45,882 nt of DNA from Treponema sp. (GTDB lineage: Bacteria; Spirochaetota; Spirochaetia; Treponematales; Breznakiellaceae): the NCBI GenBank assembly GCA_031274285.1, contig JAISQJ010000102.1:1-45882 (forward strand), in the 5' to 3' direction. The notes under the pieces were generated by a model. The model was not told the origin of the DNA, did no database searches, and worked only from the letters and a program-made list of their open reading frames with translations. Each line of letters opens with the position of its first letter. Positions within the stretch are counted from its first letter, which is position 1. Positions 6,559-16,931 of the stretch are shown in pieces. A program made the position numbers and the translations under genes.

Positions 6559-7437
6559 CTAAATATTGGCCGTCAGTTCCGGGCGGATCTCCCCGGTCTC
6601 CAGGGAGAGCAGGTACTTCCCCCACTTCCCCGCCCAGTCCCTAAGCTCCTGCACCCCCAGGGGGGAGGGAGCCCTGGATTCGGTGTGGCCGGCGATCTTT
6701 TCCGCCAGTTCGAGGTACACCTTGGCCTGGGCGGAGTCCGGGGCCGCCTCGATGGTAGTTTTCCCCTGGAGTTCGCATTGGGTCACCGTGACGGAGCGGG
6801 GAATGTATTCCACCACCTGGGTTTTGGTCTGATCCACAAAGTCATTGATGATCTCCCTGGAGTAGGGTTGATTGATGGAGTTGGCGATCACACCCCCCAG
6901 GAGGGCGCCCCCGGAATTGGAATACTTCTGTATGCCCCGGAAAAGGTTATTGGCCGCATAGATGGCCATAAAATCGGCGGAGGAAACGGTAAACACATGC
7001 TGGGCGATTCCCTCCCGAATGGGGACGGCGAAGCCGCCGCAGACCACGTCGCCCAGCACATCGTAGATGACAAAGTCCAGGTCCAGCTCTTCAAAGATCC
7101 GCTGCTGCTTGAATAGTTCCACGGCGGTGATGATCCCCCGCCCCGCGCAGCCCACCCCCGGCGAGGGTCCCCCCGCTTCGACGCAGTAAACCCCGTTAAA
7201 GCCCGAATAGATTACCTCGTGGGCGTTAACCTGGCTTTTTTCCCGCAGGGTGTCGAGGACCGTGGGGATATAGGTCCCGTCCCGCAGGGTGTTGGTAGAA
7301 TCGCTTTTAGGATCGCAGCCGAACTGCATTACCTTGTAGCCCAGCCGTGACAGGGCGGCGCTTAAATTCGAGGTGGTGGTCGATTTGCCGATGCCGCCCT
7401 TTCCGTAAATGGCGATCTGTTTTGCCTTATTTCCCAT
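6559..7437 (-). CDS. marH: Nitrogenase reductase-like Fe protein (MarH/NifH family)
   Basis: The 292-residue P-loop ATPase would deliver electrons to the D/K complex using a homodimer-bridging [4Fe-4S] cluster. The Walker A is GKGGIGKST (12-20). Cluster cysteines are Cys97 ([12 protein letters not shown]) and Cys133 (DVVCGGF); Arg100 matches the ADP-ribosylation site of NifH. DPKSDST marks the switch region. It is last in the operon, 27 bases after the D-like gene, and its stop lies 10 bases from the convergent epmA. Family membership is certain. The mar name is inferred from the operon (NifB but no NifE/N, and sulfur genes); sequence alone cannot exclude another group IV-like NifH. Confidence 0.88.
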
Positions 7438-7464: not shown

Positions 7465-9009
7465 TTAGTTTTGTTGTACAGCCGCGGATTCATCAATGAT
7501 GGGGACCGATTTGATATACGAGAAGGGATCCTTTTCGTACCAGTCCTGCTTAAAGGGCAGCGGGCTGTTAAGGGAAATCCGCTTGTTAAACTGGTAGTTC
7601 CGGATCTTCGCGTTTAAGCGGCGGCTGACCTCAAAGACCCCCGAATAACCGCAGTAGTTATATATGGGCCCAAAGAGGGGCAGCAGCGGCAGCCCGTGGC
7701 GGGCGGCGATATTGTTGCCCCCCACATGGGTGATCAGAATATCCGGTTTAAGGCGCTTAACAATGTTGGTCATCTCAAATGGCTGATTGGTGGCGACGCT
7801 GAACTGTACGTCATCGATGCTTTCCAGGGCCTCAAAGATGGGCTCCACGAAACGGTCGTAGTGGTGGGCCTTAAAGCCGACCACCTCCATGCCCAAGTCC
7901 TGGCAGATCTCCGCGGTGGCCAGAATCCGCACTTCCCCGCCGGCCAGGTAGACCCGCTTTCCCGCCAGGTTTTTCCGAAATGGTTCCAGGGCCTCCTCCA
8001 GGGCCTTGTTTTCCGCCTGAATAAGATTTTCCGCCTCCCTTTCCAGGCCGAAATGGGCGGCCACCCGGCGCAGCCACTTGTCGGTATTTTTTCTGCCGAT
8101 AGGAATGGTGTCCACCACAAAGGGGATGTTGTACTTGGTTTTTAGGTGCTCCACAAAATAATCGTCGTGGGTACCGCAGAGGCTTACGTTGAGCGAAGTT
8201 TCCAGGGCGTACTGAAAATCCTCCGGCTCCGCATAGCAGGGGATAAAGGTTACGTTCAGCCCCAGGCCCTCCAGGATGCGGCGGAATTCCACTTCGTCGG
8301 CCCGGCTCATGGAGCCCACGTTAAGGATATTCACGTTCCGGCTTATCCGATACTTTTCCCGGACCCGGTAGCTGTCGTCTTCCCAGACCGGCAGTTTACG
8401 ATCCGGGTAGCGGATGTACTTTTTGAGGATGCCGTGGTAGACCGCGTCATAAGCGGTGGCCATGAGCTTGGTCTTAAAGCCTTCGCAGTGGATGGGCACC
8501 AGCACCGCGGCGGTCTCCTTTTGCAGATCGTCAAGGATGCTGTCCACATCATCGCCGATCAGGGCGGGGACGCAGCTAATGGCCACGATAATCGATTCGG
8601 GCCGGAATTCCCGGTCCGCGTAGATCACCGCCTCCCGCAGTTTCTTTTCCCCGCCGCCGATGACATCCGCCTCGTCCAGGTTGCTGGTAAGCCACTGGAG
8701 GCCTTCGGCATTGGGGTCCCGGAGCCGCTTGAAGGTTTTATTCAGGCCCAGGTTTCCGGTGACGCAGATGCCGCAGCCCAGGGGGCCGTGCATAATGACT
8801 ACCGCGTTCCTGATAGAGTTGAGAATCCCCAGGCTCAGGGTAAACTGGCAGCCCTGGGCCATGGTAAAAGCCCGGGCGGAAAGGTTGGTGCAGCCGTTGG
8901 CCATGGCCCGGCCGCAGGTCCGTACCTGGGCGCAGGTACCGCCGAAGGCAATGGAAGCGTGGAGCCGATCTTCCCGGCTGGGCGCGGACTTGGCGTTCAA
9001 AAAATCCAT
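7465..9009 (-). CDS. marD: Nitrogenase-like catalytic alpha subunit (MarD/NifD family)
   Basis: The 514-residue oxidoreductase subunit is homologous to NifD. P-cluster-type cysteines are Cys54 (AQGCQF), Cys79 (HGPLGCG) and Cys146 (SCVPALIGDD). VPIHCEGF matches the conserved NifD VPVRCEGF. Cys278 (NVSLCGTHDDYF) aligns with the NifD cysteine that holds the terminal iron of the cofactor. Alignment by eye puts Leu87, Met183, Tyr187 and Phe446 where NifD has Arg96, Gln191, His195 and His442. It is therefore probably a cofactor-bearing enzyme with a different active site. Start 9009 has GGAGG with good spacing. A hairpin separates it from the upstream K gene. Proposed role: reductive C-S cleavage, inferred from context. 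Confidence 0.85.
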   Translation of the reverse strand: MDFLNAKSAPSREDRLHASIAFGGTCAQVRTCGRAMANGCTNLSARAFTMAQGCQFTLSLGILNSIRNAVVIMHGPLGCGICVTGNLGLNKTFKRLRDPNAEGLQWLTSNLDEADVIGGGEKKLREAVIYADREFRPESIIVAISCVPALIGDDVDSILDDLQKETAAVLVPIHCEGFKTKLMATAYDAVYHGILKKYIRYPDRKLPVWEDDSYRVREKYRISRNVNILNVGSMSRADEVEFRRILEGLGLNVTFIPCYAEPEDFQYALETSLNVSLCGTHDDYFVEHLKTKYNIPFVVDTIPIGRKNTDKWLRRVAAHFGLEREAENLIQAENKALEEALEPFRKNLAGKRVYLAGGEVRILATAEICQDLGMEVVGFKAHHYDRFVEPIFEALESIDDVQFSVATNQPFEMTNIVKRLKPDILITHVGGNNIAARHGLPLLPLFGPIYNYCGYSGVFEVSRRLNAKIRNYQFNKRISLNSPLPFKQDWYEKDPFSYIKSVPIIDESAAVQQN

Positions 9010-9073: not shown

Positions 9074-10414
9074 TCAGCGGCCCATGACCAGGTAAGTGAT
9101 AATATCCTCGGTCAGGGACAGGCCCCCGGTGAAGCCCGCATAGGCCCGGTTCATGACGCAGCGGCCGGTCAGGGGGAAGGTCACCGGCACCAGGGGGAAG
9201 CCGAATTCCTGGGCCATGTCCCGCTCGTGGGAGCTGCCGATGATCACCGTGGGGCCCATGGAATCGTAGTACCGGTTGTTGCGGTTCCGGGGCCAGACCT
9301 CCCGCAGGTACTTTTTAACCGACGAGGTATCGGAGTCGAAATACACCGGGGGCTTTAGGGAGGAATCGAGGTTGGCAAACTGGGCGCCCACGGTCTTTTG
9401 CTGATCCTCGTCTAAAAGGTCCGTGACCACCACCAGTTCCGGTATCCAGCCCAGCTCGTCGGAAAGAAAACGGGTAAGGGCCGGGGCGTAGCTGGAATCC
9501 CCCACCACGATGGCGTAACGCTGCAGGTCCGCATCGTTGTAGATATCCGATATGCGCTCCAGGTAGTTGTAGTAAATCTTTTTTTCTTCGTCGATGACCG
9601 CAGCGGTATGGGCCGGATCGATAGCAAGGGCGTTTCCCACGGTCTTTAAGAAGGTCTCCCCCGCCACGGCGCCGATGGGGAAGGGGGTAACGATGTAGGG
9701 GATGCCGTGGACATCCTCAAAGTGCCGGGCGCTTTCAACGCCAAAATTATTGGACACGATGATGTTAAGGGCGGCCCTTCCGGCATTTTTAAGGTTATCC
9801 AGAGTCTCCCCCTCGCCAAAAAAGGTGTTCACCGTGAGGCCCAGCTTTTCCACAAGCCGCTTGATCTCCCGTAAATTACCCTTCCAAAAAGCGTCCTGGG
9901 CGGGAACTATACCCAGGATATTCACCGTCAGGGGGTCCTTTTCTTCGGACCTTTGGATGTAATGATCGATAAAGCCTTTGAACAAAAGTTCGTAGCCCAC
10001 AAAGGCATTGCCCTTAAAACTGGGGGTGGGAACGGCGATGACCGGCTTTTCGGCGTTTTTGAATTCGGAGACCACCGCCACCGTGTCGTCCCCGATCATG
10101 TCCACCATACAGCCGGTGACCACCACGTAGAGGTCCCCGTCCACAATTTCCAGGGTGGACTGGATCTGTTCCCGCAGCCGGGCCTCGCCGCCAAAGACCA
10201 CGTCCCGCTCCACCACATTGGAACTGGGCAGCGCGGAGCCGCCGCAGTAGCCGCCCCCCAGGTAGCCGGCCCCCGCGTTGAGGGCGGCGTTAATGTTGCC
10301 GCCGCAGCCCGCGGACCCGTGGATGATGGTGATGGCCCGGTGCAAGGCGTGAAGGGTTCCCACGGCGCCTCCTAAGGCGCAGGTGTACCGGGGCCTGTCG
10401 ATAAATTTACTCAT
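9074..10414 (-). CDS. marK: Nitrogenase-like beta subunit (MarK/NifK family)
   Basis: The 446-residue partner of the D-like subunit. Three P-cluster-type cysteines are Cys12 (YTCALGG), Cys37 (GSAGCGG) and Cys102 (TGCMVDMIGDD). The Cys12-Cys37 distance of 25 equals the Cys70-Cys95 distance in NifK. The protein lacks the long N-terminal arm of NifK and begins almost at the first cluster cysteine. An extra YCGG cysteine (Cys57) lies between the second and third ligands. GAGGAG precedes ATG 10414. It is the first of the three structural genes in transcription order (K, D, H), which differs from the H-D-K order of classical operons. Confidence 0.83.
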   Translation of the reverse strand: MSKFIDRPRYTCALGGAVGTLHALHRAITIIHGSAGCGGNINAALNAGAGYLGGGYCGGSALPSSNVVERDVVFGGEARLREQIQSTLEIVDGDLYVVVTGCMVDMIGDDTVAVVSEFKNAEKPVIAVPTPSFKGNAFVGYELLFKGFIDHYIQRSEEKDPLTVNILGIVPAQDAFWKGNLREIKRLVEKLGLTVNTFFGEGETLDNLKNAGRAALNIIVSNNFGVESARHFEDVHGIPYIVTPFPIGAVAGETFLKTVGNALAIDPAHTAAVIDEEKKIYYNYLERISDIYNDADLQRYAIVVGDSSYAPALTRFLSDELGWIPELVVVTDLLDEDQQKTVGAQFANLDSSLKPPVYFDSDTSSVKKYLREVWPRNRNNRYYDSMGPTVIIGSSHERDMAQEFGFPLVPVTFPLTGRCVMNRAYAGFTGGLSLTEDIITYLVMGR

Positions 10415-10474: not shown

Positions 10475-11371
10475 CTAACCATGCGAAAAGGTCTGTTCCA
10501 GTTCCCGGTTCCCGTAAAGCAGGGAGGAAAGGTCCCCCCGGCCGGGAATGCCCACGGCGTCGGCCCGGCAGTGCCGACAGTGGCGGAACACCGGAAGGTA
10601 GGCCTCCGCCGCTTCCCGGGCCTGGGCCAACTGGAGGCAGTCCGGTTCCGAAAATCCGGCAAACTCGTACTGGGGAATAAGGGGGATGATATTGATAATC
10701 CCCGCCCCGTTTTCCGCTACGGTCCGGGCTATCTCCCCAATATGTTCCCCGTTTATTCCGGGGATCAGTACGATGTTGATCTTGATCAAAAGCCCCAGGG
10801 CGGCGGCCTTCCGGATCCCCCGCTTTTGGGCTTCTATCAGAATCGCCGCCCCCTCTACCCCCTCATATTTTTTCCCCTCCAGGATTATATGGGAACAAAT
10901 CCGGTCCAGGATCGCCGGGTCTACGGCGTTCACCGTCACCGTTAAGGTCCGCACCCCCACCCGGAAAATTTCCTCCGCATAGGGTTCCAGCAGCAGGCCG
11001 TTGGTGCTCAGACAGTTGATAAGGTCCGGGTAGGCCCGGTGGATAATATCAAAGGTCTGGAGGGCGTGGCCGGTGGCCAGGGTATCCCCCGGACCGGCGA
11101 TGCCCGCCACGGTAATTTCCGGGCAAAGCTCCAGGGCCTCCTTTACCTTATCCAGTGCGGCCGCAGGCTTGAGCAGTTCCGCGCTTACCCCCGGCCGGTT
11201 CTCGAATTTGTTAAAGGTCCGCTTGCAGAAACGGCACTGGATATTGCAGGCGGGACTGACCGGCAGGTGAATCCTCCCCCGGTTTACGTTGGCCTCCCCG
11301 GAAAAGCAGGGATGCCGGCTGCTGATATGCGTGTAGCGTTCGTCGATCTTCGCGGCTCCTAAGCAGCCCAT
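10475..11371 (-). CDS. marB: NifB-type radical SAM cluster-assembly enzyme
   Basis: NifB fuses [4Fe-4S] units and inserts a SAM-derived carbide to make the 8Fe precursor of nitrogenase cofactors. The 298-residue protein contains HPCF (Cys22), the radical SAM motif ACNIQCRFC (Cys42, Cys46, Cys49), RTFNKFENRPGVS, and the C-terminal CRHCRADAVG motif (Cys265, Cys268), all diagnostic of NifB. The C-terminal NifX-like domain found in some NifB proteins is absent. It lies 60 bases before the K-like gene and 37 bases after cysK. Its presence implies that the D/K complex carries a NifB-derived cluster, not just a [4Fe-4S] centre as in protochlorophyllide reductase. Confidence 0.88.
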   Translation of the reverse strand: MGCLGAAKIDERYTHISSRHPCFSGEANVNRGRIHLPVSPACNIQCRFCKRTFNKFENRPGVSAELLKPAAALDKVKEALELCPEITVAGIAGPGDTLATGHALQTFDIIHRAYPDLINCLSTNGLLLEPYAEEIFRVGVRTLTVTVNAVDPAILDRICSHIILEGKKYEGVEGAAILIEAQKRGIRKAAALGLLIKINIVLIPGINGEHIGEIARTVAENGAGIINIIPLIPQYEFAGFSEPDCLQLAQAREAAEAYLPVFRHCRHCRADAVGIPGRGDLSSLLYGNRELEQTFSHG

Positions 11372-11408: not shown

Positions 11409-12359
11409 TTAAAACCGCGGCCGTTCCAGTGAATCAAAGAGGGGGGTGGAAAGGTACCGTTCCCCCGTATCCGGCAGCAGGGCCACCACAATTTTGTTTT
11501 CGTATTCCGGCCGCCGGGCGATCTGGGCGGCCGCAAAGGCCGCGGCGCCGGAGGAAATGCCCACCAGGAGCCCCTCCCAGGCGGCAAGACGCTGGGCCGC
11601 CTCAAAGGCGTCGTTGGTGCGGACCTTGTAGATTTCATCGTAAACGGCGGTGTTAAGCACGTTGGGGACAAAGCCCGCGCCGATGCCCTGAATCTTGTGG
11701 GGACCGGGGGCCGAGCCTGAAAGGACCGCCGAGTCGTAGGGCTCCACCGCGATAATTTTTACGGTGGGGTTCCGCTCCTTCAGCACCTCCCCTACCCCGG
11801 TGATGGTGCCCCCCGTCCCGATGCCGGCCACAAAGGCCGCCACCTGTCCGTCGGTGTCCCGCCAGATTTCCTCGGCGGTAGTTTTCCGGTGGACCTCCGG
11901 GTTGGCGGGGTTGTTAAACTGCTGGGGGATAAACGAATTCGGTATCTGGGCGTTTAGTTCCTCCGCCTTCCTGATGGCCCCCTTCATGCCATCCTTGCCG
12001 GGGGTCAGCACCAGTTCCGCGTTCAGAGCCGCCAGGAGCTTCCGCCGCTCCATGCTCATGGTGTCGGGCATCACCAGGATGATCCGGTAACCCTTGGCCG
12101 CCGCCACAAAGGCAAGGCCGATGCCGGTATTGCCGCTGGTGGGTTCGATAATAACGCTGCCTTCGTCCAGGCGCCCCTCCTGTTCTGCGGCCTCGACCAT
12201 GGCCAGGGCGATACGATCCTTCACGCTCCCCAGGGGGTTAAAATACTCAAGCTTTGCTACCACCCGTCCCCGGACCCCCAGGTCCCGGCCGTAGGCGGTC
12301 AATTCCAACAGCGGCGTATTTCCGATTAAATCGGTTAACTTGCCGGCGATCCGCACCAT
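11409..12359 (-). CDS. cysK: Cysteine synthase (O-acetylserine sulfhydrylase)
   Basis: PLP enzyme that makes cysteine from O-acetylserine and sulfide. The 316-residue length is typical. The Schiff-base Lys lies in NPLGSVKDR, the substrate loop is EPTSGNTG, the PLP-phosphate loop is [10 protein letters not shown], and the C-terminal SSGAAA segment is present. GGAGG lies 7-8 bases before ATG 12359. It sits between the ssuA-like and nifB-like genes on the same strand. It is therefore likely to capture sulfur released by the nitrogenase-like enzyme, although relatives can also use thiols or other acceptors. Confidence 0.9.
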
Positions 12360-12466: not shown

Positions 12467-13480
12467 TTACTTAAAAAGAGAATCCGGCACCCCTTCCAGG
12501 GCGATAAAGGTAGTCCGGGTCAGGACATCGGGGTCCACATCGTCCCCCACCAGCTTGATCCGCTGGAGGTCCCTGGTGTTGCGGCCTATGGCTATCCGGG
12601 CCCCGTCTACCGAAGAACGGTAGTCGTAGGTTTTAAGAATCGCGGCGTTCACCTCAGGGTCCCCGGCGACATAACGCTTTTCCGCCATAAGCCGGGCGGT
12701 TTCATCGGGGTTGTTTTGCACGTAGGCCGCGGCCTTCTGGATGGCCCGGACAAATTTTGCCGCGGTCTGGGGATAATTTTTTACAAAGTTAGCCCCCGCC
12801 ACAATGACGCAGCAGAATTCCTCTTTCAGGTAATCATCGGTGGCGGAATTGATGATCACCCGGCCCTTGCCCTCGCTCTCGATAATATGGGCCGTGGGGT
12901 CTCCCTGGGCGATGGCGTCCACCTGTACCCGTTCCAGGGCCAGGGGCAGGTCAGCGCTCTGGTAAATGACCCACTCCACCTCCAGGTTATCGGCGCTTAC
13001 CCCGATACCCAGTTCCGCCAGGTAGCGCTGGGTGATAACCGTACCGCTGGCGGCCATGCCGGTGGTGCCGATCTTCTTCCCCTTTAAGTCCGCCGGACCC
13101 CTAATCGGCGAGTCCGGCCGGACCAGCACCTTCACGCATCCGGTATGGAGGCCCAGGGGGATCTTAACCTCCAGGCCGTTGGCCAGGGGCTGAATCAGGG
13201 TAGCCAGGAGGTTATTGGTCACGTCAATCTGGCCGGTGGTTAAGAGCAGGTTAGTCTGCCCCGTATCCACCTGAACCTCGTCCCATTTAAGGCCCTCCTC
13301 CTCGTAGAAACCCTTTTCCTGGGCAATAAAGAAGGGGGCGCTGCAGAGGCCCACGGTAACCCCCCGCCCGATTTTTACCACATAATCCTCTTCCGCCACG
13401 GAAGAATCCGTTTTTCCCCTGGCGTAGACACCGGGTAGTGTTACTGCGGCCAGAAGAAGCACAAGAAAGCATTTTTTCAT
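12467..13480 (-). CDS. ssuA: SsuA/NMT1-type periplasmic substrate-binding protein
   Basis: A 337-residue binding protein of the nitrate/sulfonate/taurine family (COG0715). It opens with a Sec signal peptide (MKKCFLVLLLAAVTLPGVYA). Family features include the CSAPFFIAQEKGFYEEEGL start, the GTTGMAASGT segment and the two-lobe alpha/beta pattern. It would capture the imported compound in the periplasm and pass it to the permease. The ligand cannot be assigned from sequence; sulfonates, sulfate esters or other organosulfur compounds are favoured because of cysK and the NifB/H/D/K genes downstream. A 107-base gap before cysK leaves room for an internal promoter or processing site. Confidence 0.8.
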   Translation of the reverse strand: MKKCFLVLLLAAVTLPGVYARGKTDSSVAEEDYVVKIGRGVTVGLCSAPFFIAQEKGFYEEEGLKWDEVQVDTGQTNLLLTTGQIDVTNNLLATLIQPLANGLEVKIPLGLHTGCVKVLVRPDSPIRGPADLKGKKIGTTGMAASGTVITQRYLAELGIGVSADNLEVEWVIYQSADLPLALERVQVDAIAQGDPTAHIIESEGKGRVIINSATDDYLKEEFCCVIVAGANFVKNYPQTAAKFVRAIQKAAAYVQNNPDETARLMAEKRYVAGDPEVNAAILKTYDYRSSVDGARIAIGRNTRDLQRIKLVGDDVDPDVLTRTTFIALEGVPDSLFK

Positions 13481-13553: not shown

Positions 13554-14345
13554 CTACAGGTAGTATTGCAGTTCCTGCCGGGCGCCGGCGAAATGCAGAA
13601 TCTGGAGTATCTTCGCCCGCAGTTCCAGAAAGTCCGGATCGTCCCGTTGGCGGGGGCGGCCCATTTCCACCCGGATAACCTGTTCTATCTTGGCGGGCCG
13701 GGCGGACATGACCACAATCCGATTGGCCATATAAATAGCCTCGTCCACATCGTGGGTCACCATCACCGTGGTCATGCCCCGGCGCTCCCAAATTTTAAGA
13801 ATCTCGTCCTGCATGTTCATCCGGGTAAAGGCGTCCAGGGCCCCCAGCGGTTCGTCCAGAAGCAGGACCTTGGGGTTATTCACCAGGGCCCTGGCCAGGC
13901 TTGCCCGCTGGGCCATGCCGCCGGAAAGGTGGTGGGGGTAAGATTTTTCAAAGCCCTCAAGACCCATGAACTTGAAAAATTCCGGGATATTTTCCCTTTC
14001 CCGCTTGTAGACCCCCCGGGCCCGCAGGCCGAAGGCGATGTTTTCGTAAATAGTCTTCCAGGGGAACAGAGTCGGGTCCTGGAACACCAGGCCCCGCTCG
14101 TAACCGGGGGCGTGGATAGACTCGTCGTCCAGGCGCAGCTCCCCGCTGTCCGGCTGAATAAGGCCCGCGATAAGCCGCAGCAGGGTAGATTTACCGCAGC
14201 CGGAAGGCCCGATAAGGGAAATAAATTCCCCCGGATTAAAGACCAGATTGATATTGTCCAGCACCGCAATGTCCGGCCCGTCAACCTGGGGAAAGGTTTT
14301 CCGCACGTCCTTTATCCGGATAGTTCCTTGTTCCGCTGTTTCCAT
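13554..14345 (-). CDS. ssuB: SsuB-type ABC transporter ATPase
   Basis: The 263-residue ATPase subunit of the importer. It shows Walker A GPSGCGKST, a Q-loop VFQDPTLFPW, signature LSGGMAQR, Walker B VLLLDEPLGALD and the switch His in MVTHD. This form (FQD-LFPW, LSGGM.QR) is typical of nitrate/sulfonate/taurine transporters. It lies between the permease and binding-protein genes, so the transcript order is permease, ATPase, binding protein. Confidence 0.88.
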   Translation of the reverse strand: METAEQGTIRIKDVRKTFPQVDGPDIAVLDNINLVFNPGEFISLIGPSGCGKSTLLRLIAGLIQPDSGELRLDDESIHAPGYERGLVFQDPTLFPWKTIYENIAFGLRARGVYKRERENIPEFFKFMGLEGFEKSYPHHLSGGMAQRASLARALVNNPKVLLLDEPLGALDAFTRMNMQDEILKIWERRGMTTVMVTHDVDEAIYMANRIVVMSARPAKIEQVIRVEMGRPRQRDDPDFLELRAKILQILHFAGARQELQYYL

Positions 14346-14378: not shown

Positions 14379-15428
14379 TCACCACCGGATCGTTCCCTTC
14401 TGCCAGCTTAAAACCCGGTTCCTTATCCTGAACTGGATATTGATCAGGAGGGAAAAGGTCAGGGCGATCACGATAAGGGCCGCGTAAACCTGGGAATAGG
14501 CCATGGTTTCCCGCTGCCAGTTGATGTACCAGCCGATGCCGAATTTGCATCCGATCATCTCCGCCGCCATAAGGGTCAGGAAGGATGAGGAGGTGCCGTT
14601 AAAAAGACCGGCGAAAATATTGGGGGCCGCCGCGGGCAGGGCAATGGAAAGCACATTCCGCAGAGTCCCCGCCCCCAGGGTGCTGGAAACCTCAAAGTAG
14701 CTTTTCCGCACATTGAGGATCCCCGAACTGGTAAGAATGGTGGTGGGAAACCACACCCCCAGGGCGATAAGGAACAGGGCCGCGTCGGTGGCCCGGGTAA
14801 AAACCACCAGGGCAATGGGAATCCAGGCCGTCGAGGGAATGGGCCCCACGATGCGGATACAGGGCATGATCCAGTAGTTCCAGCGCTGGCTCCAGCCGAT
14901 AAGAGTCCCGGTCAGGACCCCCACAAAGGCCCCCAGGAAGAAGCCCCCCAAAAGGAGCCGCAAAGAGTAGACCAGACAGCGGAGCATAAAAAACCAGTCG
15001 TTAATAAAAACCTGGACAATCCGCTCCGGCGCGGGAAAGTAGAGGCTGGGGATCAGGCCCAGCTTCAGGGTGATCACGTTATAGAGCCCCAGGACCAGGA
15101 AGGCCGCACCCAAAAACCAGGATTTATACACCAGCTTTTCCCGCCGTTTCCGGTTAAACACGCTCACCGCCCCGTACAGCCCCAGAACCCCGATAAGGAT
15201 GTACAAAAAAATCGTGAAGTAGGGCAGCTCCTTAACCCGGTACCCCGGATTAGTCGGCGTCAGGGTATGGACCAGCAGGTTGACGGCCAGGGCCGCCAGG
15301 GGGATCAGCACCCGCCAGTCAAAGAAAAGCTCCGGGCCGGACCCTTCCGGGACGGTCTTTTCCGCCGAAACCACCCCCCGGCTTTTAAGGATTCCCGTTA
15401 AATTTCCGCTCTTTAACAGCTCAGACAT
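14379..15428 (-). CDS. ssuC: SsuC-type ABC transporter permease with extended N-terminus
   Basis: A 349-residue membrane protein, first gene of the operon. The C-terminal part is a standard BPD_transp_1 permease, with an EAA-like loop around SSTLGAGTLRNVLSIALPAAAPNIFAG. The family is usually about 250-280 residues. Here about 100 extra N-terminal residues hold a likely cytoplasmic segment and three further hydrophobic stretches (about residues 37-51, 69-84 and 96-113). AGAGAGG precedes ATG 15428. The extension could be a family variant or a lineage-specific feature. Confidence 0.82.
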   Translation of the reverse strand: MSELLKSGNLTGILKSRGVVSAEKTVPEGSGPELFFDWRVLIPLAALAVNLLVHTLTPTNPGYRVKELPYFTIFLYILIGVLGLYGAVSVFNRKRREKLVYKSWFLGAAFLVLGLYNVITLKLGLIPSLYFPAPERIVQVFINDWFFMLRCLVYSLRLLLGGFFLGAFVGVLTGTLIGWSQRWNYWIMPCIRIVGPIPSTAWIPIALVVFTRATDAALFLIALGVWFPTTILTSSGILNVRKSYFEVSSTLGAGTLRNVLSIALPAAAPNIFAGLFNGTSSSFLTLMAAEMIGCKFGIGWYINWQRETMAYSQVYAALIVIALTFSLLINIQFRIRNRVLSWQKGTIRW

Positions 15429-15587: not shown

Positions 15588-16931
15588 TCAGGGACGGCGC
15601 TGGTCCAGGGGCAGGTAGTCCAGCCGGGGCTGAACGCATTTATAGGCGGGGCGGATTATCCTGCCGCCGGCCACAATTTCCTCCAGCCGGTGGGCGCACC
15701 AGCCCGCCACCCGGCTTACCGCAAAGAGGGGGGTGTAGAGTTCCGTGGGGATCCCCAGCAGCTTGTAGACAAAGCCGGAGTAGAAATCCACGTTGGCGCA
15801 TATCTCCTTGTCCGAACCCTTGACCTTCCTAAAAACCCCGGGGCTAAGCCGCTCTATCAGCCGGTAGAGGTTGAATTCCCTGACCAGCCCCTTCTCCTCC
15901 GCCAGGAGGGCGGCCTTGTCCCGGAGCAGGATGGCCCGGGGATCGCTCTTGGTGTACACCGCATGGCCCTGGCCGTAGATGAGCCTGGAGCCATCGTAGG
16001 CCTCGCCCCGGAGGATGGACGCCAGGTAGGCGGAAACCTCTTCCTCGCTCTCCCAGAGCTTCACGTTGGCCTTAATGTCCTCCATCATCCCCATAACCTT
16101 GATGTTGGCCCCCCCGTGCTTTGAACCCTTGAGGGATTCGATCCCCGCGGTGATGGCGGAAAAGGTATCCGTATCCGCGGAGGAAACCAGGTGGACCGCA
16201 AAGGTGGAATTGTTGCCCCCCCCGTGTTCCGCGTGGAGCACCAGGGCCAGGTCCAGAATCTCCGCCTCCAGCCGGGAGTAGGTCTGATCCCGGCGGATAA
16301 GGGAAAGCAGGGTTTCCGCGGTGGAATTGGAGGACTCAGGCAGGTGGATGACCAGACTGTCGTGATCGAAGTAATGCTTCTTGGCCCGGTACGCATAGGC
16401 CGCAATGGTGGGAAAGCGGCCGATAAGTTCCAGGCACTGGCGGAGTACATTTTCCGGGGACTTGTTCTCCGGGTCTTCGTCGTAGGAGTAGAGGGTCAGT
16501 ACCGACCGGGCCAGCTTGTTCATGATGTCCCGGGAGGGCAGCTTCATGATGGAATCTTCGGCAAAGCTCTTGGGCAGGGTCCTGCTGTTCCCCAGCAGGG
16601 CGGAAAAGTCATCCAGGGCCTTTTTATCCGGGAGCCGCCCAAAGAGCAGGAGGTAGACCGCCTCCTCAAAGCCAAAACGCTGTTCCGCGGCGGCGTGCCG
16701 CACCAGGTCCTCCACGTCGTAGCCCCGGTAGTAGAGCCGCCCTTCCTGGGGGACCTTTTCGCCCTCGTCGATGATGTAGCCGTGGACATCCCCAATCCGG
16801 GTAAGGCCCACCAGCACCCCGGTGCCGTCGGCATTGCGGAGTCCCCGTTTGACATTGAACTTACCGTAGAGGTCCGAATCAATGTAGTCGTTACCCGTAA
16901 CTTCGGATAGATATTCTTCCGGCTTTTTCAT
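15588..16931 (-). CDS. gltA: Citrate synthase
   Basis: Condenses acetyl-CoA and oxaloacetate to citrate (the 2-methylcitrate activity of relatives cannot be excluded). The 447-residue protein has the catalytic His in LHAEHGGGNNSTFAVH, the second His in GQGHAVYTKSDPRA, and the catalytic Asp in NVDFYSG. RPAYKCV near the end suits the CoA/citrate-binding Arg region. It is a single gene on the minus strand. A promoter (16943-16971) lies so close to the ATG that there is no room for a Shine-Dalgarno sequence, and none is visible. Confidence 0.9.
   Translation of the reverse strand: MKKPEEYLSEVTGNDYIDSDLYGKFNVKRGLRNADGTGVLVGLTRIGDVHGYIIDEGEKVPQEGRLYYRGYDVEDLVRHAAAEQRFGFEEAVYLLLFGRLPDKKALDDFSALLGNSRTLPKSFAEDSIMKLPSRDIMNKLARSVLTLYSYDEDPENKSPENVLRQCLELIGRFPTIAAYAYRAKKHYFDHDSLVIHLPESSNSTAETLLSLIRRDQTYSRLEAEILDLALVLHAEHGGGNNSTFAVHLVSSADTDTFSAITAGIESLKGSKHGGANIKVMGMMEDIKANVKLWESEEEVSAYLASILRGEAYDGSRLIYGQGHAVYTKSDPRAILLRDKAALLAEEKGLVREFNLYRLIERLSPGVFRKVKGSDKEICANVDFYSGFVYKLLGIPTELYTPLFAVSRVAGWCAHRLEEIVAGGRIIRPAYKCVQPRLDYLPLDQRRP

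Follow-up and report, generated by a model that had tools for sequence, protein, structure and literature searches.

A Mar-related nitrogenase-like D subunit of Treponema with conserved cluster cysteines, a Loop I histidine and a remodelled cofactor pocket

RESULTS AND DISCUSSION

The window (the whole stretch of 45,882 nt analysed here) encodes a nitrogenase-like D subunit that keeps all four cluster cysteines, has lost the pocket residues of N2-reducing NifD and carries a histidine, His428, at the position of the second cofactor ligand of methylthio-alkane reductase (Mar). The D subunit probably forms the catalytic half of an ATP-driven sulfur-assimilation reductase that is nitrogenase-like and Mar-related (group IV) and would free sulfur from an imported organosulfur compound for capture by the cysteine synthase CysK. 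This reading builds on the identity of the parts, the conservation of the ligands and the gene order, all of which were observed directly.

The D subunit and its gene neighbourhood

The D gene (7465..9009, minus strand; 514 aa) encodes a NifD/MarD-like protein of nitrogenase component 1. The ORF is genuine, as judged from the Pfam match (PF00148, E = 2.5e-72) and from an ATG start with a GGAGG motif immediately 5′. Among PDB sequences the best phmmer matches were MarD 9fmg and 9d9u (about 1e-61), and identity to Rhodospirillum rubrum MarD is 30%. A cofactor-free AF2 model (pLDDT 85, pTM 0.86) had 9fmg_A as its top Foldseek match (rmsd 3.0, TM 0.81/0.89) and was closer to MarD than to any NifD. 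The NifD equivalog model gave 152 bits versus a cut-off of 654, which sets the protein apart from NifD of Mo-nitrogenase.

The minus-strand run to which D belongs has the order permease, ATPase, substrate-binding protein, CysK, NifB-like protein, K, D, H. The ABC permease (14379..15428, minus strand; NtrB/SaoP/SsuC-like), the ABC ATPase (13554..14345, minus strand; SaoA/Ntr/Tau-like) and the substrate-binding protein (12467..13480, minus strand; NMT1/SsuA-like, from a family that also includes non-sulfur ligands, THI5/NMT1) were assigned by profile matches. The cysteine synthase CysK (11409..12359, minus strand) scored 454 bits with TIGR01139 (cut-off 351). The radical SAM cofactor maturase (10475..11371, minus strand) is NifB-like without a NifX domain; its TIGR01290 match (4.8e-81) is below cut-off, it matches solved NifB at 1.1e-79, and the core motifs CNIQCRFC, HPCF, ENRPG and CRHCRADA are all present. 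The K subunit (9074..10414, minus strand), with P-cluster residues Cys12, Cys37 and Cys102, has MarK 9d9u_C as its best PDB match (6.4e-83). The H subunit, or Fe protein (6559..7437, minus strand), carries Cys97, Cys133 and a P-loop, exceeds the TIGR01287 cut-off and is best matched in PDB by MarH 9fmg_D (9e-147). R. rubrum Mar proteins are thus the best solved relatives of D, K and H alike. A citrate synthase-like protein (15588-16931) lies on the same strand upstream of the ABC permease. A scan for promoters and terminators gave matches no more than in shuffles, and operon limits were not set by it.

The top NCBIfam model for D was nifE, with a score far under its cut-off, as a NifEN-like scaffold maturing the cofactor of another enzyme might show. 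However, Foldseek ranked MarD and NifD above NifE; the only other PF00148 proteins of the genome (contig C46) form a small HDK set by an oligopeptide/nickel-type ABC transporter; and the His ligand described below, together with the sulfur-related neighbours, indicates an enzyme. The scaffold role was rejected on fold rank and gene context, and we give it hardly any credence. The C46 set (L040 2075-5400) is a second nitrogenase-like H-D-K with short, divergent D and K. One NifX-type carrier (PF02579) is encoded elsewhere in the genome; in several relatives, Bacillota members, NifX-type proteins stand beside H.

Cluster ligands and the Loop I histidine

Residue conservation was counted in 81 sequences at least 45% identical, the window sequence counted in. 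R. rubrum MarD and NifD 9nsv (Av numbering) served as references in MAFFT alignments; phmmer and hhalign were used as well. The first-pass annotation had proposed that D keeps three P-cluster cysteines and the cofactor cysteine, and this assignment holds. Cys54 (8848..8850), Cys79 (8773..8775) and Cys146 (8572..8574; all on the minus strand) are aligned by MAFFT with P-cluster ligands Cys62, Cys88 and Cys154 of NifD and are kept in 81/81, 80/81 and 81/81 sequences. Cys278 (8176..8178, minus strand) is aligned with both NifD Cys275 and MarD Cys270 and is invariant (81/81). All three methods place the four cysteines alike, and P-cluster cysteines occur in both D and K, as in Mar.

In R. rubrum MarD (9FMG) two residues bind the [Fe8S9C] cluster, Cys270 and His429, and the histidine belongs to Loop I, a loop distinct from that of NifD His442 (PMC12552129). 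The counterpart of this histidine in the window protein is His428 (7726..7728, minus strand), which phmmer, MAFFT and hhalign all align with it; His428 is present in 81 of 81 sequences and follows directly on a predicted strand (residues 424-427) of the AF2 model. The Mar ligand pair thus recurs, by alignment, as Cys278 and His428; all Mar cluster ligands are present and essentially invariant. His428 is the residue expected opposite Cys278, and by homology to the Mar structure it may bind iron in D as the second cofactor ligand. The earlier view that the cofactor would be held by Cys alone at one end is therefore unsupported. That annotation had considered only the His442 position and so missed the Loop I histidine; of its overall interpretation, the retained cysteines and the remodelled pocket stand, while Cys-only ligation does not. 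Three residues conserved in 81/81 sequences (His428, His383 and His281) were absent from it.

The Arg428-His429 pair of Mar is not retained as such: a one-residue gap takes the place of Arg, and at residue 427 the clade has Thr, Ala or other amino acids. A set of 24 Mar-type proteins also has His at the Loop I position (24/24), a count that follows by construction since the set was picked by its Arg and His residues.

Three D-like paralogs of treponemes (L032:1507-3015, L033:7890-9341 and L034:523-1977) have all four cluster cysteines and a Cys at the Gln191 position, and in none of them is a His aligned at the MarD His429 or NifD His442 position. These paralogs, rather than the window protein, fit the Cys-alone description and may hold a cofactor that is ligated by Cys only or in some other way.

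A remodelled cofactor pocket

Replacement of the NifD active-site residues, as the first-pass annotation had it, was borne out. Met183 (8461..8463, minus strand) stands at the position of NifD Gln191 and MarD Trp195 (Met in 74 and Gln in seven of 81 sequences), and Phe446 (7672..7674, minus strand) at that of NifD His442 (76 Phe, 5 Tyr); MAFFT and hhalign agree on both, and neither supports a gap shift that would bring His or Gln to either position. Tyr187 (8449..8451, minus strand; 81/81) replaces NifD His195 according to MAFFT. Its match to MarD Phe199 is gapless and transitive, and Phe199 was equated with NifD His195 in the Mar structure paper (PMC12552129); hhalign against NifD alone puts a gap there. 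Conservation at positions 183, 187 and 446 exceeds chance. The equivalence of Arg96 is the softest among the replaced residues: its partner is Leu87 according to MAFFT and Leu89 according to hhalign, never Arg, and the residue at 87 varies across the clade. As D has none of the Gln, His and Arg residues of the N2-reducing site, the pocket is remodelled.

The pocket differs from that of Mar as well, with Met183, Tyr187 and Leu182 where Mar has Trp195, Phe199 and His194. His281 (8167..8169, minus strand), Ser278 in NifD, is specific to the clade; the Phe-to-Tyr187 and Leu-to-His281 swaps are clean (81/81 in the clade versus 24/24 in Mar-type proteins). His383 (7861..7863, minus strand; 81/81) is aligned with MarD His375, a residue near S2B in MarD.

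These replacements bear on N2 fixation, an activity that Nfa, a group IV enzyme of Endomicrobium proavitum, is claimed to have. NifB, H and a complete set of cluster ligands are present, NfaDK was reported functional in a termite-gut isolate, and Gln occupies the Gln191 position in seven members of the clade. Yet Arg96, Gln191, His195 and His442 are all replaced in D, the position of NifD Val70 is occupied by Ile (57/81) or Met (23/81), the neighbouring genes are sulfur-related, and further NifD/E-like genes accompany the window type in a congener (G002) and in G034, a genome of the same family; N2 fixation is thus very unlikely. The group IV-A NfaHDK of E. proavitum and Paenibacillus riograndensis shares three P-cluster cysteines with the window system and likewise does not require NifEN, but it is said to hold all N2-reduction ligands, a comparison made by description only. 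Mo-nitrogenase NifDK has the fold, P-cluster ligands and Cys275 in common with the window proteins and differs in the four replaced residues. The clade members with Gln183, the NifD residue, are the more distant ones (L104, L114, L115, L118, L121, L126 and L127).

Distribution, phylogeny and gene order

Scanning 84,980 species genomes by pattern yielded 235 relatives, of which the best 80 were analysed. These 80 come from six phyla (Spirochaetota, Bacillota, Synergistota, Fusobacteriota, Myxococcota and Thermodesulfobacteriota), and Treponema drafts make up most of the named close relatives, from which a termite-gut setting may be assumed for the window host. The plasmid collection held distant relatives only (≤31% identity).

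The conserved order in the clade is (ABC transporter)-cysK-nifB-like-K-D-H. In the 80 loci, K is directly upstream of D in 73 of 74 cases, CysK is upstream on the same strand in 52 of 67 and lies within 8 kb in 29 of 30; a transporter of the window type is found in 15 of 30 loci with full flanks. Some basal members (e.g. Pelotomaculum and Thermacetogenium) depart from this order, with CysK or the transporter located elsewhere or belonging to another type.

In the phylogenetic tree, whose deep branching order is uncertain owing to long branches, the 24 Arg-His proteins and RrMarD form a clade with 99% SH-aLRT support, and the window protein falls outside it. This placement argues against a strict methylthio-alkane reductase that would form methanethiol and a hydrocarbon from dimethyl sulfide, ethylmethylsulfide or 2-(methylthio)ethanol. 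Mar proteins are indeed the closest solved relatives of D, K and H, and Cys278, His428 and His383 are retained, but identity is 30%, Arg428 (part of the proposed hallmark) is missing, and Trp195, Phe199 and Leu273 are Met, Tyr and His. Moreover, ten contigs (L086, L088, L090, L091, L095, L105, L107, L110, L119 and L122) hold Mar-type DK next to window-type DK, and CysK with an ABC importer would be odd company for volatile thioethers and methanethiol. We therefore consider strict Mar activity unlikely.

Compared with MarBHDK of R. rubrum (9FMG, 9D9U; group IV-C), the window system is alike in fold, in P-cluster cysteines of D and K, in the counterparts of Cys270/His429 and His375, in the loss of the NifD Gln, His and Arg residues, in its NifB-type maturase and dedicated H, and in its sulfur context. 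It differs in the absence of Arg428, in Met, Tyr and His281 for Trp, Phe and Leu, in the low identity of D and in gene order (B-K-D-H versus B-H-D-K in Mar), with cysteine synthase and an ABC importer on the window side.

The pattern of Cys275 kept and His442 lost has been known in this part of the superfamily since a 2012 report, which also linked the Cys275-bearing relatives with cysteine synthase (PMC3464626). The lineages of that report (Dos Santos et al.) resemble the window type in residue pattern and in their link to cysteine synthase or O-acetylhomoserine sulfhydrylase, but the report recognised neither a pocket signature at clade level nor a Loop I His. A nifKD-cysteine synthase operon was described in 2026 in the termite spirochete Pillotina (PMC13067680). 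Given these two reports, the association with CysK is not new; what is new, as far as the literature examined shows, is the definition of the clade with its pocket signature and the assignment of His428.

In the Mar structure paper no His ligand could be reconstructed for the common ancestor of Mar and nitrogenase, and Arg428-His429 was proposed as a Mar hallmark (PMC12552129). Since the Loop I His is invariant (81/81) in a second large clade that lacks Arg, His alone is not diagnostic of Mar; Arg428 is limited to the Mar side. With this His present in two separate clades, its origin probably lies before they diverged, and a single cofactor seems to have been reused in two or more pockets.

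Proposed function

Mar and Isr, the two relatives characterised in this region of group IV, both act on organosulfur compounds, and the gene neighbours suggest sulfur scavenging rather than nitrogen fixation. In the proposed mechanism, the NifB-like protein would make an [Fe8S9C] (L-type) cluster, which D would hold between Cys278 and His428, without homocitrate or Mo; cluster type and ligation are here modelled on the Mar structure. A P-cluster would be common to D (Cys54/79/146) and K (Cys12/37/102), and H (Cys97/133) would supply electrons with ATP. Substrate, product and C-S cleavage are suggested by the gene neighbours: the SsuA/NMT1-type ABC transporter would bring in a small polar organosulfur compound, the cluster would cleave it reductively, and CysK would take up the freed sulfide (or thiol) to form cysteine.

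An isethionate (sulfonate) reductase such as IsrBHDK, with sulfite as product, would likewise combine an SsuCAB importer with a radical SAM partner; Isr is known in spirochetes, and the genome of the window encodes one sulfite reductase. IsrBHDK of Rhodobacter capsulatus shares with the window system the nitrogenase-like HDK, the radical SAM protein, the SsuABC-type importer and sulfur assimilation. However, IsrD lacks two P-cluster cysteines (only the Cys88 equivalent is present, those of Cys62 and Cys154 being absent) and Cys275, and IsrB is BciD-like, not NifB-like (PMC11423573). Here D has all four cysteines and the radical SAM partner a NifB core, on which grounds membership of Isr was rejected. 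In addition, a protein of IsrD pattern (G, P and D at those sites) is a separate gene beside an ABC transporter in G034, and seven cluster-bearing genomes have no PF01077 match. Isr-type sulfite release thus seems quite improbable, while action on another sulfonate by an enzyme different from Isr is possible. In the Isr-like locus of G034 (L031:4785-11115) an ABC transporter precedes an H-D-K set that shows the residue pattern of IsrD, and just outside the locus lies a match to siroheme sulfite reductase (G034:C1:639932-640528).

The draft genomes compared are 71-90% complete. Siroheme sulfite reductase (PF01077) was not found in seven cluster-bearing genomes of the genus or family (G002, G003, G006, G009, G013, G025 and G029; 71-86% complete), and PAPS-reductase matches were weak or absent in all genomes compared except G034. 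The PF01077-free genomes hint at a sulfide-level product, usable by CysK without sulfite reduction, though this is suggestive only, as the drafts are incomplete and gut sulfide may be available. One PF01077 protein is present in the window's own genome, with which sulfite release is compatible. G000 and G030 each have a PF01077 protein.

Beyond the preferred sulfur-assimilation reading, we put forward tentatively, and with some doubt, that nitrogenase-like sulfur enzymes include, beside Mar and Isr, a third class formed by this clade: an [Fe8S9C] reductive desulfurase that would take imported polar organosulfur compounds to sulfide and pass it straight to cysteine synthase, with no need of sulfite reductase, its proton-delivery set being Tyr187, His281 and His383. 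The clade could represent a sizeable, unrecognised anaerobic sulfur route in guts, and its function is testable in cultured hosts (Sporobacter termitidis, Moorella thermoacetica, Ruminiclostridium, Paenibacillus sinensis and Mobilisporobacter senegalensis).

Two further loci were observed. On contig C131 of the window's genome (L129:210-2157) a siroheme sulfite reductase-like protein is followed by a TusA-like and a MoeB/ThiF-like protein, possibly a sulfur-transfer cluster. In G034 (L030:1413-18471) two D/K pairs of different clades flank a single B-H-CysK set; one pair is Mar-type and the other is of the Trp183/Tyr187/His428 type, 41% identical to the window D, a layout in which several DK enzymes may share one maturase and one Fe protein.
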